DNA of 64,000 bases, from positions 1 to 64,000 of the forward strand of contig PAQF01000037.1 of assembly GCA_002709695.1 (NCBI GenBank), read 5' to 3'. Positions 194 through 7,193 of this stretch are shown piece after piece. The DNA is from Candidatus Poribacteria bacterium. Lineage in GTDB: Bacteria > Poribacteria > WGA-4E > UBA9662. A model generated the notes under the pieces. It saw only the letters and a program-made list of their open reading frames with translations. It was not told the DNA's origin and searched no databases. Position 1 is the stretch's first letter, and each line of letters opens with the position of its first letter. The translations under genes and the position numbers were made by a program.

Positions 194-796
194 CTACCCC
201 AAGAGACTCAGAATATTCTGCGACTTAGCATTAGCCTGGGCTAGCATCGCCGTATGAAACTGCGCCCGAATTTGGTTTTTTGTTCTTTCCACAACAGCCA
301 GCGAAGGATTATTTTGGGAACTAGATACCACTAACTTTGGCAAAGGTACTGCCCCTAAATAATTCCTTTCACCACTAGTTGCATCAACAGCCGCATCCAG
401 CAAGTCCATGGCAGCTTGAGCCTGCCGATCAACTTGCATCTCTTGCAACTTTTGATGCTTCCTAACCAATGAAGACTGAAGTTTTTCCATCTCCTGATGG
501 CTCTGGTTTTCTTCAGACCGTTTTGCCTGAGGACGTTCTTTAGCTCGGAGTTTCTGTTGCTTTCTTTCAGCATCGATTTTCCGTTGTTTCCTAGCTATTT
601 CAGCACGTTCCCTACGCACTTCTTGGCGGGATTCTGCCCCGGCAAGCATATCTTTTTGGTACAGTTGCTTAACATTACCTATCTCCTCACGTGCTAACTG
701 GGCAGAACTCTTTTGCAATTGGTTAGGTTCCAACCAAGGCTTCGATGCACTTCTGCCCACTGAGGAAAGCCCATTTTTGGTTCTAATAGCTTTCAT
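194..796 (-). CDS. Flagellin C-terminal-domain-like protein with a charged helical N-terminal half
   Basis: The protein is 200 residues. Its last ~75 residues resemble the C-terminal D1/D0 helix of flagellin: a segment ending GERNYLGAV matches the EERSYLA region of the large flagellin nearby, and the end (AMLAQANAKSQNILSLLG) is a textbook flagellin C-terminus. Residues ~55-125 are a Lys/Arg/Glu/Gln-rich stretch predicted to be helical or coiled coil, and no N-terminal flagellin helix is present. It is the last gene of the flagellin island, after an flgM-like gene. The start is fixed by a complete Shine-Dalgarno (AAGGAGGT) 5 nt upstream, which argues for a translated gene rather than debris. 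It may be a minor filament, cap or junction subunit, or a binding partner of an N-terminal flagellin piece. The role is inferred; the terminal similarity is direct. Confidence 0.75.
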   Translation of the reverse strand: MKAIRTKNGLSSVGRSASKPWLEPNQLQKSSAQLAREEIGNVKQLYQKDMLAGAESRQEVRRERAEIARKQRKIDAERKQQKLRAKERPQAKRSEENQSHQEMEKLQSSLVRKHQKLQEMQVDRQAQAAMDLLDAAVDATSGERNYLGAVPLPKLVVSSSQNNPSLAVVERTKNQIRAQFHTAMLAQANAKSQNILSLLG

Positions 797-859: not shown

Positions 860-1189
860 CTACCCATTCGGGCTCCCATTTACACTGACAGCTAAAATAT
901 TCTCAGCCAGAACCTCACTGTTGACCTGATAACTACCACCCGCTATCTGTTGCTTCAATCGCTCAACCTTCTCCATATCAACTGCCGGCAGTTGGTTAAT
1001 TCGATCTCTGATAGCATTGATTTCAATCCCTCTTGATGACTGTACATATTTGTCCTGAACAACAGTAGAACTCTGGTTCTTTCCTCCTGTCCTGTCCGCT
1101 GACTGATCAGGGTGTACTTTCCCTAGCCTCTGTCTCGACAGGAGACGATTGATATTATTCAGCTTGTCTTTCTGATCTATGGGTACCAT
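860..1189 (-). CDS. flgM: FlgM-like anti-sigma-28 factor (copy 1)
   Basis: FlgM binds and inhibits the flagellar sigma factor FliA (sigma-28) until it is exported through the completed hook-basal body. This 109-residue protein has the family layout: a polar, probably disordered N-terminal half, then a C-terminal sigma-binding segment (about residues 57-100) with IRDRINQLPAVD, KVERLKQQI, a G-x-Y turn and a final helix AENILAVSV. It lies between two partial flagellin genes on the same strand. A second paralog is at 6490-6825. The ATG at 1189 is preceded by GGAG about 10 nt upstream. Length and composition suit the family (usually about 90-110 residues). Confidence 0.75.
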   Translation of the reverse strand: MVPIDQKDKLNNINRLLSRQRLGKVHPDQSADRTGGKNQSSTVVQDKYVQSSRGIEINAIRDRINQLPAVDMEKVERLKQQIAGGSYQVNSEVLAENILAVSVNGSPNG

Positions 1190-1665: not shown

Positions 1666-4600
1666 TCACCTCAACAAACTCAAAATATTCTGTGTTAAAG
1701 CATTGGCTTGGACTAACATCGCACTGCTTGACTGCGATAGAATTTGTGCCTTGGTCATATTCATGGCTTCAGACGCAAAATCCGCATCCTGGATACTGGA
1801 ACGAGAAGACTCAATGTTCTGAGCCTGACTAGCTAAATTCGACATAGTGAAGGCTAAACGATTCTGCTCTGAAGCCAGATAACTTCGCTCCTCGTTAACC
1901 ATGTATATAGCTGTATCCAAAGCCGTAATGGCTGCCCTAGCCTGATCAATATCCAAAACTGATTCATCTTCGATTTCCAAACCACTGGACGTCACACTGG
2001 TGATACCCAGTTTTAATTGGTGATTAACATCGTTATCTGCTCCTACCTGTAAATCTCTGTTTGGCGAAATTTCTATCTGTGTCCCATCCAAACTGTCATT
2101 ATGTGGGTTATAACTGTCAGCAGAAGGTATAGCTGGATCAGGACTACTCTTTATATCCAGCTGAATGCCAAATTCATCAAAATTCAGCGTCGTGTCATAA
2201 CCTACACGATATTCCAAACTCTGCTCCATTCCATTCTCACCCGTCATCGTCAGTTTCCTCGTTTCCGGTACAAAAAAATCCTGAGGGGCTCCAAGTAATG
2301 TCGTTGTCGTCCCCGATGCATCGCTGGTATCAACTTCCAAACCCAGTCGAGAGAAACCTACTGTTTGAGGGCTATCATGGAACTGATAGCCAGTTTCTTC
2401 CACAGGAGCTGTATTAGGCGAGTTAATGGCCAGCGTTGGATTAACAGTGAAATCCCTAGAAATGTTAAGTAACTGGGTTGCTGTTGTTTGGGCATCATCA
2501 CTATCAACATCCAAACCTAAATCACTAAAAGAGACGGTTTGCGATTCCGAACTGGACGAATATTTAATCTCTTGTTCGGTTCCATCAGGTATGCTGGCTT
2601 TCAATCGTGTATCAACCGTAAACTCTTGGGAATGATTCAGTAACTGCCTTGCCGTTTGTTCAGCATCATCACTATCAACTTCGAGACCCAAAGTATCGAA
2701 ATCCACCGTTTGTGATTCTGAACTGGACGAATATTTAATCTCTTCTGTCGCTCCGTTTGGAGCTGTTGCCCTCAGCCTGGCATCAACCGTAAAATCTTCT
2801 GCATTATCAAGTAAAGACGATGTCATGGCTATCGCATTGTCCGTTTCAACCTGAAGGCCTAAGCCAGATAGGGTTACTGTTTGAGAGCTGCTATCGTATT
2901 CATAAACACTTTTAGCCACCGTATTATCATGGGCAGTCACTGACATGGTGGGGTTGACTCTGAACCCTTTCGAATTCTCAAGCAGACTGGTAGCTGTCCC
3001 TTCAGCATTACTACTGTCAAGGCTAAGCCCCAAGTCGGTGAAATTCACCGTTTGGGATTCTGAACTGGACGAATAGGGAACCTCCTGCTCGGTCCCATCA
3101 GGAGCAACAGCTTTCAACCGTGTATCAACCGTAAACTCTTGGGAATGATTCAGTAACTGCCTTGCCGTTTGTTCAGCATCATCACTATCAACTTCGAGGC
3201 CCAAAGTATTGAAAGAGACTGTTTGGGATTCTGAACTGGACGAATAGGGAATCTCTTCTGTCGCTCCGTTTGGAGCTGTTGCCCTCAACCTGGCATCAAC
3301 CGTAAAACTTTTGGAATTATTCAGTAATGAATTCGTCATGACTTGGGCATCACTAGTATCAATTGTGAGGCCTAAATTACCAACGGAGATTGCTTGAGGT
3401 GACGAACTGTACGAGTAGTTGACGTCAGTAACCGTAGTATTGTTCGGAGCAGTTACCTCCAAGGTCGGATTAACAGTAAAGATCCTGGGATTACCAGCCA
3501 TCTGATCACCCAGAACCGTTCCATCACTCACATCTATTTGAAATCCCAAGTCAGAAAAAGTCGAGGTTTGGGGACTGCCTGTATAATCGTAGTTGACTGT
3601 CTCGCTTGTCCCTCCGCCAGAGGGAGTGACCGTCATTTCTCTACTGAAAGAAACCGAAAACTGATCCAATACTTGATCAGAAGGATAACCATCTACAAGA
3701 CCACTCTTAGTGCCTGCGACTGATCCAACTTCACCAAACCGGACATCTGAAGCACCACCACCACCACCACCATTTTGTACTTGACCGGATGTATCATAAC
3801 CGCCACTGCCTCCTCCATTCCATCCACCAAGATTCGTTCGGTCTTGACTATTATCTCCTTCTCCTTGTCCACCTACGTAGACATGACCAATTTGACCTGA
3901 CGTAACTTGAAATTGTCCTGTGGCATACCCTCCATTTCCTCCTGTGGCACCACCTTGGGCACCCCACACTTCTATTGTAATTTCGGTAACACCAGCAGGC
4001 GTCGTAAATGTTTGTACGCTTCCCGTATAATCGAAAGTTACATTACCACCATCATAGCTAATCTCTGCTGAACCGTCGCCGGAGCGAACTCCAGACTGGG
4101 TAGACCCGTTTGATACTCCACCAATATAAGAGGAACCACCGCCACCTCCGGCAGCATAACCGGACCCATGCTCCGCCATCATAGTTCCACCACCACCGCC
4201 ATAATATCCACCACCACCGCCACCACTACCCCATGCATTACCTGTAGATCCACTACCTCCCTGACCTTGCGTTCCATGTGTAGCACCATACGATGTTGAG
4301 TTAGCCTCTCCTCCAGCCGATTGTGCCCCCCCTGTCCCTCCTACAGCAACATTGGAACCTTCATCACCTTGACCTCCTTGAAGGCCTCCTCCAGATCCTC
4401 CTAGCTTTGACGGATATGAGCCACCACCACCACCACCAGCTACAATAATTCTCCGTGCCAAATCCTGATCCTGACCTGTATTCAACCCCCATTTTTGGGC
4501 TAAGTAGTCGTTGATCGGTGCCTTTTCTGCATCTGTCAGTACTCTATCAAAAACCAGAACTTCATCGATATTAGTAGCATCAGATAACTGGATACCACCT

Positions 4601-6429
4601 GCATTACTGTCAGCCAAGTTCAGAGCTCCTGATTTCGTCACCACAAACATCGTTCCTGTACTGAAGGTTTGGCTGGGAGCTAATCCTGACTGAGAAATAT
4701 GATTGCTTTTTCCGCTAAAATCAACCCAGTTATCCGCATCTATAGCACTCCATTCACGAGAATCCAGCCATAATTTCAAGTCACCGGATACATTCGAAAA
4801 GGCTCCAGGTAAATCTTTGACCTTACTCGCATCAACAGGATAACTATCCTTGAAATCTAAGACACCATCACTATCACTGTCAGGGAAAGTTACCGTAACA
4901 TCTTTACCATCCGTAGTACGAAATGTAACTCCGTGGTTCCCCGAAACAGAGTTCGGACCTGAAGCAGAGAAAGTATCAGAGGAAGCCAAAGTCCAAGCGG
5001 TACCATCCGATGTCGTTTCAAGCTCAATATCCCCACTACTTCTCAGTATTAGTCTATAATCACGTTTATCTTCTGTCACACTAACTGTATAGTCTCCGGG
5101 TGTCACCGGAACACCTTCCGTTGAAGCATCATGCCGGATCTCGCCGATGGCTGTGCCGGAAAAATTACTGACATTTGCTATTCCTGCACTGACCTTGGCC
5201 CTGATCATATGATCTCCTGGCCTCACTAATGGGGAAGCATCATGCCGGATTTCAGTAATGGATGTACCGGACAAACCACTTATATTAGCTCGATCTGAGA
5301 CATCTAAACGCGCGATTATTTCATGATCCCCCGGTTGCACTACTGAGGAGACATCATGCCGGATTTCAGTAATGGATGTACCAGATAAACCACTTATATT
5401 GACAGGATCCGAAGCATCCAAGCGAGTGCTGAGCGTATGGTCTCCGAGTTGTACTACTGAAGAGGCGTTATGCCGAATTTGAGTGATGGATGTACCGGAT
5501 AAACCACTTATATTGGCAGGATCCGAGGCATCCAAACGCGATATTATCGTATGGTCTCCTGGTTGTACCACTGAAGAAGCATTATGCCGGATCTCAGTAA
5601 TCGACGTACCCGACAACCTACTAATATTAGCTAGATCCGAAGCATCCAAACGCGATATTATTGTATGATCTCCTGGTAACACAATTGGTGAAGTACTATG
5701 CCGAAGTTCACTCACATCTGTAATAGATAAATTATCAATGTCAGCTATACCTGAATTGACTTGGGATTTAATACTGTAGGTTTCTCCCAGCGCAGGTTGA
5801 AATGATGAACTACTGTACCTGATACCAGTTATTGCCGTATCAGACAATTTGCTGATATCCGCTAAGCCACTAACGTCAATATGTTCATCCTTCAAGGTGT
5901 AAACCCCTTTACGAATATCATGGGATAAATTCGCATTTTTGACGCTGATTCCTATCACATCATCGGCAGTAGTATTAGCTCTATGGACTTCATTTTTGTA
6001 ATCAGTGCCATTAAGCAAACTCATCTCGTTATACTCAGTAGCATGGGCAACCCGGCTGATTTCATTTTTAAGTGTTTGAAACTCCAGGTTGATGCTAGCC
6101 CGGTCACTATTATTGAGTGTATCAGTAGCAGCCTGTGTTGCCAGTTCGCGCATTCGCGTCAGCATGCCACTTATGCCGCTCAAGCCACTTTCTGCCGTTT
6201 GAATCAGGTTATTGGCTTGTTGGGAATTCTCATTGGCTTGCTTTACCCCCTGCATCTGGTTGAACATTCGAGTACTAATAGCAGACCCAGCAGAATCATC
6301 AGCTGCCTTGTTAATCCGAAGCCCAGAAGAGAGCCTTTCCAATGTTGTCTGCAGATTGAACTGAGACTTGGACAAGTTCCTGTAGGCAAAAGCTGAGGTC
6401 AGATTACTTTTAATTCTGAAAGTATTCAT
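1666..6429 (-). CDS. fliC: Giant chimeric flagellin (1587 residues)
   Basis: This is a filament subunit with intact flagellin ends and an exceptionally large middle; common flagellins have roughly 250-600 residues. Residues 1-~145 form the N-terminal D0/D1 (ERLSSGLRINKAADDSAG, then LEFQTLKNEISR). Residues ~1490-1587 form the C-terminal D1/D0, ending AMLVQANALTQNILSLLR. Between them, in order: about six ~38-residue repeats with a SGLSGTSITEIRH core (~186-450); a DSDSDGVLDF calcium-binding-like turn (~517-526); a shortened LamG/concanavalin-like segment (LKLWLD... to YLAQKWGL, ~550-650); a glycine-rich region (~664-897) with two halves resembling the Gly_rich family (VEVWGAQGG-type and AGGGGGGS); and about nine ~57-residue repeats with an SSSSESQTV...LGLEVDSDDA core (~926-1400). 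The middle should project from the filament surface. No protease motif was seen, so flagellinolysin is unlikely. It ends at the ribosome site of the mini-flagellin gene and follows an flgM-like gene. Confidence 0.9.
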   Translation of the reverse strand: MNTFRIKSNLTSAFAYRNLSKSQFNLQTTLERLSSGLRINKAADDSAGSAISTRMFNQMQGVKQANENSQQANNLIQTAESGLSGISGMLTRMRELATQAATDTLNNSDRASINLEFQTLKNEISRVAHATEYNEMSLLNGTDYKNEVHRANTTADDVIGISVKNANLSHDIRKGVYTLKDEHIDVSGLADISKLSDTAITGIRYSSSSFQPALGETYSIKSQVNSGIADIDNLSITDVSELRHSTSPIVLPGDHTIISRLDASDLANISRLSGTSITEIRHNASSVVQPGDHTIISRLDASDPANISGLSGTSITQIRHNASSVVQLGDHTLSTRLDASDPVNISGLSGTSITEIRHDVSSVVQPGDHEIIARLDVSDRANISGLSGTSITEIRHDASPLVRPGDHMIRAKVSAGIANVSNFSGTAIGEIRHDASTEGVPVTPGDYTVSVTEDKRDYRLILRSSGDIELETTSDGTAWTLASSDTFSASGPNSVSGNHGVTFRTTDGKDVTVTFPDSDSDGVLDFKDSYPVDASKVKDLPGAFSNVSGDLKLWLDSREWSAIDADNWVDFSGKSNHISQSGLAPSQTFSTGTMFVVTKSGALNLADSNAGGIQLSDATNIDEVLVFDRVLTDAEKAPINDYLAQKWGLNTGQDQDLARRIIVAGGGGGGSYPSKLGGSGGGLQGGQGDEGSNVAVGGTGGAQSAGGEANSTSYGATHGTQGQGGSGSTGNAWGSGGGGGGYYGGGGGTMMAEHGSGYAAGGGGGSSYIGGVSNGSTQSGVRSGDGSAEISYDGGNVTFDYTGSVQTFTTPAGVTEITIEVWGAQGGATGGNGGYATGQFQVTSGQIGHVYVGGQGEGDNSQDRTNLGGWNGGGSGGYDTSGQVQNGGGGGGASDVRFGEVGSVAGTKSGLVDGYPSDQVLDQFSVSFSREMTVTPSGGGTSETVNYDYTGSPQTSTFSDLGFQIDVSDGTVLGDQMAGNPRIFTVNPTLEVTAPNNTTVTDVNYSYSSSPQAISVGNLGLTIDTSDAQVMTNSLLNNSKSFTVDARLRATAPNGATEEIPYSSSSESQTVSFNTLGLEVDSDDAEQTARQLLNHSQEFTVDTRLKAVAPDGTEQEVPYSSSSESQTVNFTDLGLSLDSSNAEGTATSLLENSKGFRVNPTMSVTAHDNTVAKSVYEYDSSSQTVTLSGLGLQVETDNAIAMTSSLLDNAEDFTVDARLRATAPNGATEEIKYSSSSESQTVDFDTLGLEVDSDDAEQTARQLLNHSQEFTVDTRLKASIPDGTEQEIKYSSSSESQTVSFSDLGLDVDSDDAQTTATQLLNISRDFTVNPTLAINSPNTAPVEETGYQFHDSPQTVGFSRLGLEVDTSDASGTTTTLLGAPQDFFVPETRKLTMTGENGMEQSLEYRVGYDTTLNFDEFGIQLDIKSSPDPAIPSADSYNPHNDSLDGTQIEISPNRDLQVGADNDVNHQLKLGITSVTSSGLEIEDESVLDIDQARAAITALDTAIYMVNEERSYLASEQNRLAFTMSNLASQAQNIESSRSSIQDADFASEAMNMTKAQILSQSSSAMLVQANALTQNILSLLR
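2230..3654 (-). repeat. Array of ~171-nt coding repeats in the giant flagellin
   Basis: About nine units of ~57 codons, each with a TV-rich strand, SSSSESQTV-type segment and LGLEVDSDDA-type segment. A block of three units is duplicated at an exact offset of 513 nt: 2611 corresponds to 3124 and 2741 to 3254. The two copies are nearly identical over long runs, which points to a recent in-frame duplication. Confidence 0.85.
5100..5870 (-). repeat. Array of ~114-nt coding repeats in the giant flagellin
   Basis: About six units of ~38 codons (SGLSGTSITEIRH and PGDHTIISRLDASD cores). The five between ~5215 and ~5720 are the most alike, and the outer ones are diverged. Period and phase are in frame, so this is a protein repeat. 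Confidence 0.85.
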
Positions 6430-6489: not shown

Positions 6490-6825
6490 CTAAGCAAATA
6501 CCGCCGGCGACAATGATTGGGTTAAGTGAATGCTAACGGACAAAATTTGATCAGCAATCCCGTTACCGTCACTGTAATAACTACCCAATGACTGTTGCAC
6601 ATCTTCGATCTTCTGGTCATCAACATCTGGAAGCTCTTGGATCCGTGCCTTGATGGCAGAAATTTCCTCACTTCTCTGGGATTGCACAAAACCATCTTTA
6701 TTATTCAAAGACTGATTCGGATTGACCTTCAAATAGGAGTTAACTGAATTAACTCCTATTTTTCCTGATTGGGTACTGTACAACCTTGAGCTACTGAGTT
6801 TGCCGTTTCTTCCAATGGATGCCAT
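6490..6825 (-). CDS. flgM: FlgM-like anti-sigma-28 factor (copy 2)
   Basis: The protein is 111 residues. The C-terminal half carries the FlgM-type sigma-binding layout: EISAIKARIQELPDVD, a short helix (KIEDVQQSL), a G-x-Y-like turn (GSYYSDGNG) and a last helix (IADQILSVSI). Copy 1 (860-1189) has the same order and a similar IxxIRxRIxxLPxVD core, so the two are paralogs. It is the first gene of the flagellin island, 60 nt upstream of the giant flagellin. A sigma-28-like promoter lies about 70-100 nt upstream of its start, so it is probably feedback-controlled by its own target, as in known class 3 flagellar genes. Confidence 0.7.
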   Translation of the reverse strand: MASIGRNGKLSSSRLYSTQSGKIGVNSVNSYLKVNPNQSLNNKDGFVQSQRSEEISAIKARIQELPDVDDQKIEDVQQSLGSYYSDGNGIADQILSVSIHLTQSLSPAVFA

Positions 6826-7193
6826 GTGCTTGCCCTCTGTTAATTTCTTAAAATTTCTTTGTTTCTGTTGCTACCCGAATTATTGCGGATGACTATGTAT
6901 CGGTAAGAACAGGAAAAAACTTTAGGCCTAAAATGAAAAAACTTTAAAAAAATATGAATTTAACCAAATTGGAGTGAGATACAGGGAGGAGATATAAGTC
7001 AGTAAAAAGTATGTTTTATCCAATCAAACTGTTATTTAAACACCAGTTATATCAACATTCCATAAAGATGGAACAGAAAACAGATAAACTGGATTCTCAG
7101 AACAAAGGACGTTAGAATTAGGGGAGAGATAATCCGGAAAGAAATCAACTTCAAATAAACAGAAGCTATCTAAAAGGAAAAGGTCAGATCCGT
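6826..7193. other. Divergent intergenic region between flgM copy 2 and the metallopeptidase gene
   Basis: This 368-nt region holds the sigma-28-like promoter directed into the flagellin island. The half near 7194 contains no promoter that I could identify with confidence for the plus-strand gene. Confidence 0.5.
6897..6924 (-). promoter_or_regulatory. Sigma-28 (FliA)-type promoter with a duplicated upstream box
   Basis: Reading the minus strand, TAAAGTTT (6924-6917) is followed after 12 nt by ACCGATAC (6904-6897). The enterobacterial sigma-28 consensus is TAAAGTTT, 11 nt, GCCGATAA, so both boxes match closely with one extra spacer base. A second TAAAGTTT lies 22 nt upstream (6946-6939). The promoter would drive flgM copy 2 and, by readthrough, the giant flagellin. 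Confidence 0.65.

Follow-up and report, generated by a model that had tools for sequence, protein, structure and literature searches.

Giant flagellins and flagellins that carry additional domains have both been described before. The giants of Bermanella marisrubri and Oleibacter marinus form thick filaments without a recognisable functional domain (Thomson et al. 2018, PMC6248924). That study did not settle the purpose of giant flagellins, or how their duplicated regions fit a chain path that runs out and back. Domain-bearing flagellins form a broad set: the survey by Eckhard et al. (2017, PMC5595980) counts 61 domain types in flagellin hypervariable regions.

Here we describe a giant flagellin gene from a Candidatus Poribacteria bacterium. 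The window, that is, the whole stretch of DNA that was analysed, comprises 64,000 nucleotides of contig PAQF01000037.1. The genome is a draft of 87 contigs in which several flagellin genes stop at contig edges. Between two complete flagellin ends, the protein holds two distinct repeat arrays, and between the arrays lies a payload that includes a glycine-rich domain with its halves in swapped order. The features of the locus are as follows.

194..796 (-): 200-aa charged protein ending in a flagellin C-terminal helix (PF00700 positions 54-86)
860..1189 (-): second FlgM-like protein, downstream of the giant (PF04316, 51 bits)
1666..6429 (-): giant flagellin, 1587 aa, without cysteine, in a single open frame
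1672..1929 (-): D1/D0 C-terminal half, residues 1501-1586 (Flagellin_C)
2113..3663 (-): B array, nine ~57-aa units, residues 923-1439 (unit HMM, DNA repeats)
3739..4041 (-): N-half of the glycine-rich domain, placed second, residues 797-897 (PF12810 11-94)
4051..4461 (-): C-half of the glycine-rich domain, placed first, residues 657-793 (PF12810 97-209)
4483..4785 (-): short LamG/ConA-like segment, residues 549-649, conserved in a paralogue (C20)
4831..4881 (-): one predicted TSP3-type calcium-binding motif, residues 517-533 (exact DxDxDGxxDxxDxxPxD match)
5068..5985 (-): A array, eight ~38-aa units, residues 149-454 (unit HMM, DNA repeats)
6004..6414 (-): D0/D1 N-terminal half, residues 6-142 (Flagellin_N)
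6490..6825 (-): FlgM-like protein, 111 aa (PF04316, 25.1 bits, just above the cut-off)
6898..6924 (-): putative sigma-28 (FliA)-type promoter, TAAAGTTT-N13-CCGATA, preceding the FlgM-like gene and the giant flagellin

Flagellin ends, repeat arrays and promoter

Both ends of the giant are complete. In Pfam, Flagellin_N (PF00669) aligns over model positions 1-137 of 139 (E 7e-33) and Flagellin_C (PF00700) over positions 1-86 of 86 (E 1.6e-21), and among NCBIfam models the protein scores far better with flagellin than with FlgL (1e-57 vs 9e-19). With both D0/D1 regions complete, it belongs by sequence with the filament flagellins (FliC), and its enlarged central region and 1587 residues place it among the giants, which exceed 1000 aa. 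The original prediction of a flagellin of this length, with intact ends and a large surface insert, was right. The protein does not qualify as a flagellinolysin, a class marked by an HExxH gluzincin domain: its score with NF033876 (34.9 bits) falls far short of the cut-off of 205, and the best-scoring stretch, residues 1456-1518, lies within the flagellin C-terminal part. A scan of the genome contigs with the insert as a single protein revealed no relatives.

The repeats that had been noticed by eye, of ~38 residues and about nine of ~57, prove to be eight A units (period ~38) and nine B units (period 57). HMMs built for each family find 8 A and 9 B units in the window giant, and 10 A and 8 B units in a second giant flagellin of the same genome (C30). 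Unit E values in the window giant are 1e-12 or better, and the best shuffled control reaches 0.08. Because the HMMs were trained on copies from these same two proteins, their counts are a description of the arrays and not a test; both arrays are also detected at the DNA level by TRF and direct-repeat searches. Within the B array, units B3-B4 are copied as B6-B7 (amino acid identity 89% for B3/B6 and 74% for B4/B7; 80% at the DNA level), so the array has changed in length during the history of the gene. A short-read assembly may have miscounted the B units.

From its sequence, the B array looks like tandem copies of the flagellin's own outer-domain segment, because the B HMM matches the outer-domain segments of ordinary 376-377-aa flagellins from another family of the same order (E 7.5e-5 and 2.3e-4, with the best shuffled control again at 0.08). 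In paralogue C20, the one B-like unit is matched as well (E 3e-7). A corresponding origin of the A units from the ordinary outer domain was not supported, since HMM matches to ordinary flagellins were not above chance. An AF2 model of three B units was poor (pLDDT 44).

Upstream of the giant, a FlgM-like gene ends 60 nt away, and 73 nt upstream of that gene stands the one match in the window to TAAAGTTT-N13-CCGATA, where shuffles predict 0. Genome-wide, this pattern has 6 exact matches in 5.2 Mb, of which five lie at flagellin loci, including that of the C30 giant. The locus of the window giant is thus predicted to be a site of class III (sigma-28) transcription. FlgM-like genes flank the giant on either side, and the genome has four FlgM matches in all. 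The 200-aa charged protein lacks a flagellin N-terminal domain and has a homologue beside the flagellins of contig C80 (E 1e-20). Small charged, coiled-coil-like proteins with a flagellin C-terminal helix (194-796(-) in the window, L010:1164-1772(-) and L293:714-1358(+)) adjoin flagellin genes at two loci of this genome and are also present in the sister species; the gene for one of them has a sigma-28-type promoter.

The payload and its permuted glycine-rich domain

The payload opens with the DSDSDG turn that had been read as calcium-like. It lies in an exact DxDxDGxxDxxDxxPxD motif at residues 517-533; the stretch has no Pfam match. The short segment that follows was originally described as LamG/ConA-like. 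It is real and conserved, since it recurs, likewise shortened, in paralogue C20 at 63-65% identity. Its kinship with LamG is marginal at the sequence level: hhalign gives a marginal match to the last LamG strand (probability 15%), Pfam gives no match even at E 10, a search of PDB sequences found nothing, and the phylum's 84 other genomes lack the segment apart from one marginal match. Thus, the segment itself stands, its assignment to LamG or to concanavalin A-like domains finds no significant profile match, and the term lectin is supported by none.

By homology, the glycine-rich domain is a member of PF12810 in permuted order. The C-half comes first and matches model positions 97-209 (E 3.6e-11), and the N-half follows and matches positions 11-94 (E 6.3e-12), which bears out the swapped order first suspected from the letters. 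Both halves exceed the curated cut-off (43.9 and 46.4 bits vs 24.5). They are complementary, without overlap, and the native ends are fused through 3 residues. Their identity to the canonical domain of C20 is 52 and 53%. On the C20 domain, the permutation break maps to a loop that follows the ATDVR motif, which ends at 199, and precedes the RVIVA strand, which starts at 213 and is aligned from 211. In the permuted domain, the new termini occupy the loop that connects its SDVR strand to its RIIVA strand.

To place this arrangement, ~160 loci with such glycine-rich domains were gathered from IMG/VR and GTDB genomes, and the gaps between halves were surveyed in 197 proteins, including the window gene and C20. 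Neighbouring halves in N-to-C order number 186, with a median gap of 11 residues. The 36 neighbours in C-to-N order occur in tandem arrays or cut frames at gaps of at least 55 residues, except for the 3 residues of the window gene; none of the other ~195 proteins carrying the halves has a tight C-to-N junction.

AF2 folds the permuted order with a mean pLDDT of 84 and a pTM of 0.83, from an alignment of natural C1-linker-N2 stretches of tandem arrays plus N-halves, which itself supplies the C-before-N order from proteins whose halves belong to different domains. The model has strands at both new ends (15-19 and 249-253), and at the fusion of the native ends it has confident strands (142-147 and 150-155, pLDDT 97-98). 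In a Foldseek search of the PDB, ALK/LTK glycine-rich domains came top at E >2 over ~70 aligned residues, which is not significant; such short alignments are expected when a sequential aligner meets a permutant. A viral structure library gave four matches to phage proteins at E 1e-3 or better, with poor rmsd; two of these proteins bear the names PE-PGRS family or receptor-tyrosine-kinase-like. The phage collection had no match to the domain at 1e-5, and IMG/VR has many canonical ones.

The swapped halves had been put down either to permutation or to losses from a longer array. The evidence favors a true circular permutation over array loss: the halves are complementary, their 3-residue fusion is unique in the survey, the new ends lie at a hairpin loop, and the predicted fold is confident. 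It can still be argued that the halves are what is left of a longer tandem array after decay or misassembly, and that they do not fold as a permutant. Tandem N-C-N-C arrays do occur in other proteins, the assembly is a draft, and a 20-nt glycine-codon run recurs within the giant gene. However, a remnant would not account for halves that fit together without overlap at a spacing otherwise replaced by at least 55 residues. Moreover, exact repeats of at least 20 nt are absent from the permutation junctions; the exact 20-mers shared with C20 are only glycine-codon runs away from them. The halves also show dN/dS values of 0.22-0.33 against C20, in a set of paralogue comparisons where several dS values are near saturation. 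We consider a remnant improbable. For the gene as a whole, the absence of exact repeats at the junctions, the intact frame and dN/dS well below 1 make an assembly chimera unlikely.

Paralogues and the probable exchange of payloads

Other contigs of the genome (C20, C30, C40 and C80; the window giant is C37) encode further flagellins. C30 (L013:3306-7448(-)) is the second giant (1380 aa). It shares both arrays with the window giant, at 83% identity over A1-A5 and 55% over B. Its middle (residues ~505-785) is unrelated to the window payload and has no significant Pfam or PDB match. The C20 flagellin, which runs off its contig, combines the LamG-like segment, the canonical glycine-rich domain and one B unit. 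In a tree of the last 138 residues, C37 pairs with C30 (96/94), and C20 pairs with a sister-species fragment (94/83). The payload common to C37 and C20 conflicts with this pairing of the cores, so the simplest reading of the sequences is that payloads have been exchanged or replaced between arrays.

In the comparison with C30, dN/dS is about 0.05 for D0/D1, 0.10 for A and 0.14 for B; in that with C20, it is 0.17 for the LamG-like segment. As judged from these ratios, the arrays shared with C30 are under purifying selection. Among the 73 genomes of the order, PF12810 is found only in this one, and there only in two flagellins. The nearest glycine-rich domains elsewhere come from Bacteroidota; several of the proteins that carry them have sorting-type tails and look secreted.

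Any flagellin match at all was found in 5 of the order's 73 genomes, and the three genomes of this bacterium's family have 8-14 matches each. Within this genome, the C80 flagellin (L010:3157-4482(-)) has a complete Laminin_G_3 domain (E 4e-25), and the insert of the C40 flagellin (L017:1-1704(-)) resembles a long coiled coil with Ala/Gln/Asn-rich heptad-like repeats; contig ends cut both genes. A sister species of the same genus (G001, contig C124, L050:39-2108(-)) has a flagellin with a Peptidase_S8 subtilase (E 5e-59) and a Fervidolysin-type prodomain, both in the hypervariable region. The Asp/His/Ser motifs of this protein look complete, although the assembly lacks its first ~25 flagellin residues; it differs from the known metallopeptidase flagellinolysin. 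In another genome of the same family (G002), two flagellins (L057:4924-6109(+) and L058:4327-5115(-)) have hypervariable regions with YWTD/LDL-receptor class B repeats (PF00058); their frames are broken in the assembly.

Proposed role and relation to known flagellins

Our preferred explanation, which we hold to be somewhat better than even, is that the giant is a filament flagellin serving as a display scaffold that keeps its payload off the core, with adhesion as the likeliest role. Transcription would start at the sigma-28 class III promoter and pass through the FlgM-like gene, and the complete D0/D1 ends should permit export and polymerisation as in any flagellin. The chain would run out via the A array, reach the payload (TSP3 motif, short LamG-like segment and permuted PF12810 domain) at its mid-point and return via the B array, leaving the payload away from the filament core. 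The B array probably arose by tandem copying of the outer-domain segment, as its HMM matches suggest. The payload may have been acquired horizontally, its glycine-rich part being closest to Bacteroidota proteins, and the permutation would be most simply derived from a tandem duplication whose outer halves were later lost. Payloads appear to be exchangeable, in that the same two arrays enclose an unrelated middle in C30. A filament decorated in this way could adhere to particles, polysaccharide or a host surface; adhesion to a host or to glycans had been suggested from the letters.

A wider reading, for which we would give slightly less than an even chance, is that these genes form a flagellar cassette system. 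Outgoing and returning arrays would act as stalks for a tip payload that is swapped among paralogues (permuted or canonical glycine-rich domain, LamG, an unassigned domain and, in related species, subtilase or YWTD-type domains), yielding filaments that differ in binding or enzymatic function. The permuted domain would then be an adaptation to insertion in a hairpin-like scaffold.

The giant might instead be of the ordinary kind, with an insert that serves mainly to make the filament thicker or stiffer for swimming, and with a payload that has no binding role. The thick filaments of Bermanella and Oleibacter, built without such domains (PMC6248924), and the share of the insert taken up by the two arrays, which is most of its length, agree with this. 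Yet the payload includes a domain family known from secreted surface and phage proteins, and bulk alone leaves unexplained why giants with the same arrays differ in payload; we therefore think this unlikely. It is a more open matter, though still short of probable, whether the giant is a minor or specialised component (tip, proximal segment or surface-induced filament) of a flagellum whose main filament consists of the ordinary 381-aa flagellin of the C40 core flagellar cluster. That flagellin adjoins FliD-like and FliS-like genes, and the giant has a sigma-28 promoter and adjoining FlgM-like genes of its own. Such a role would refine, rather than exclude, the display of a payload on the filament.

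As far as tested, two things are new here: a pair of arrays that flank an exchangeable payload, and a flagellin bearing a permuted PF12810 domain. An earlier PF12810 case may exist among the 61 domain types of PMC5595980. A limited literature search found no report of a circularly permuted PF12810 domain. Like the Bermanella and Oleibacter giants (PMC6248924), the window giant exceeds 1000 aa and has conserved D0/D1 regions and a duplicated outer region with an insert between the copies. Unlike them, it has two distinct repeat families, with 8 A units before the insert and 9 B units after it, and the insert contains identifiable domains that paralogues have exchanged. Since two paralogues carry the same arrays with different payloads, the function of the payload can be separated from that of bulk. 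With flagellinolysin and the domain-bearing flagellins of PMC5595980, it shares a foreign domain within the hypervariable region of a complete flagellin; in place of a metallopeptidase, its payload has the TSP3 motif, the LamG-like segment and PF12810. Because one genome holds both a natural permutant of an ALK/LTK-type domain and a canonical paralogue 52% identical to it, the pair offers a clean test case for the folding and evolution of such domains. Overall, the domain resembles the PF12810 domain of ALK/LTK, in that both halves pass the family cut-off and ALK/LTK structures head its PDB fold matches, and it differs in being circularly permuted and borne by a flagellin.
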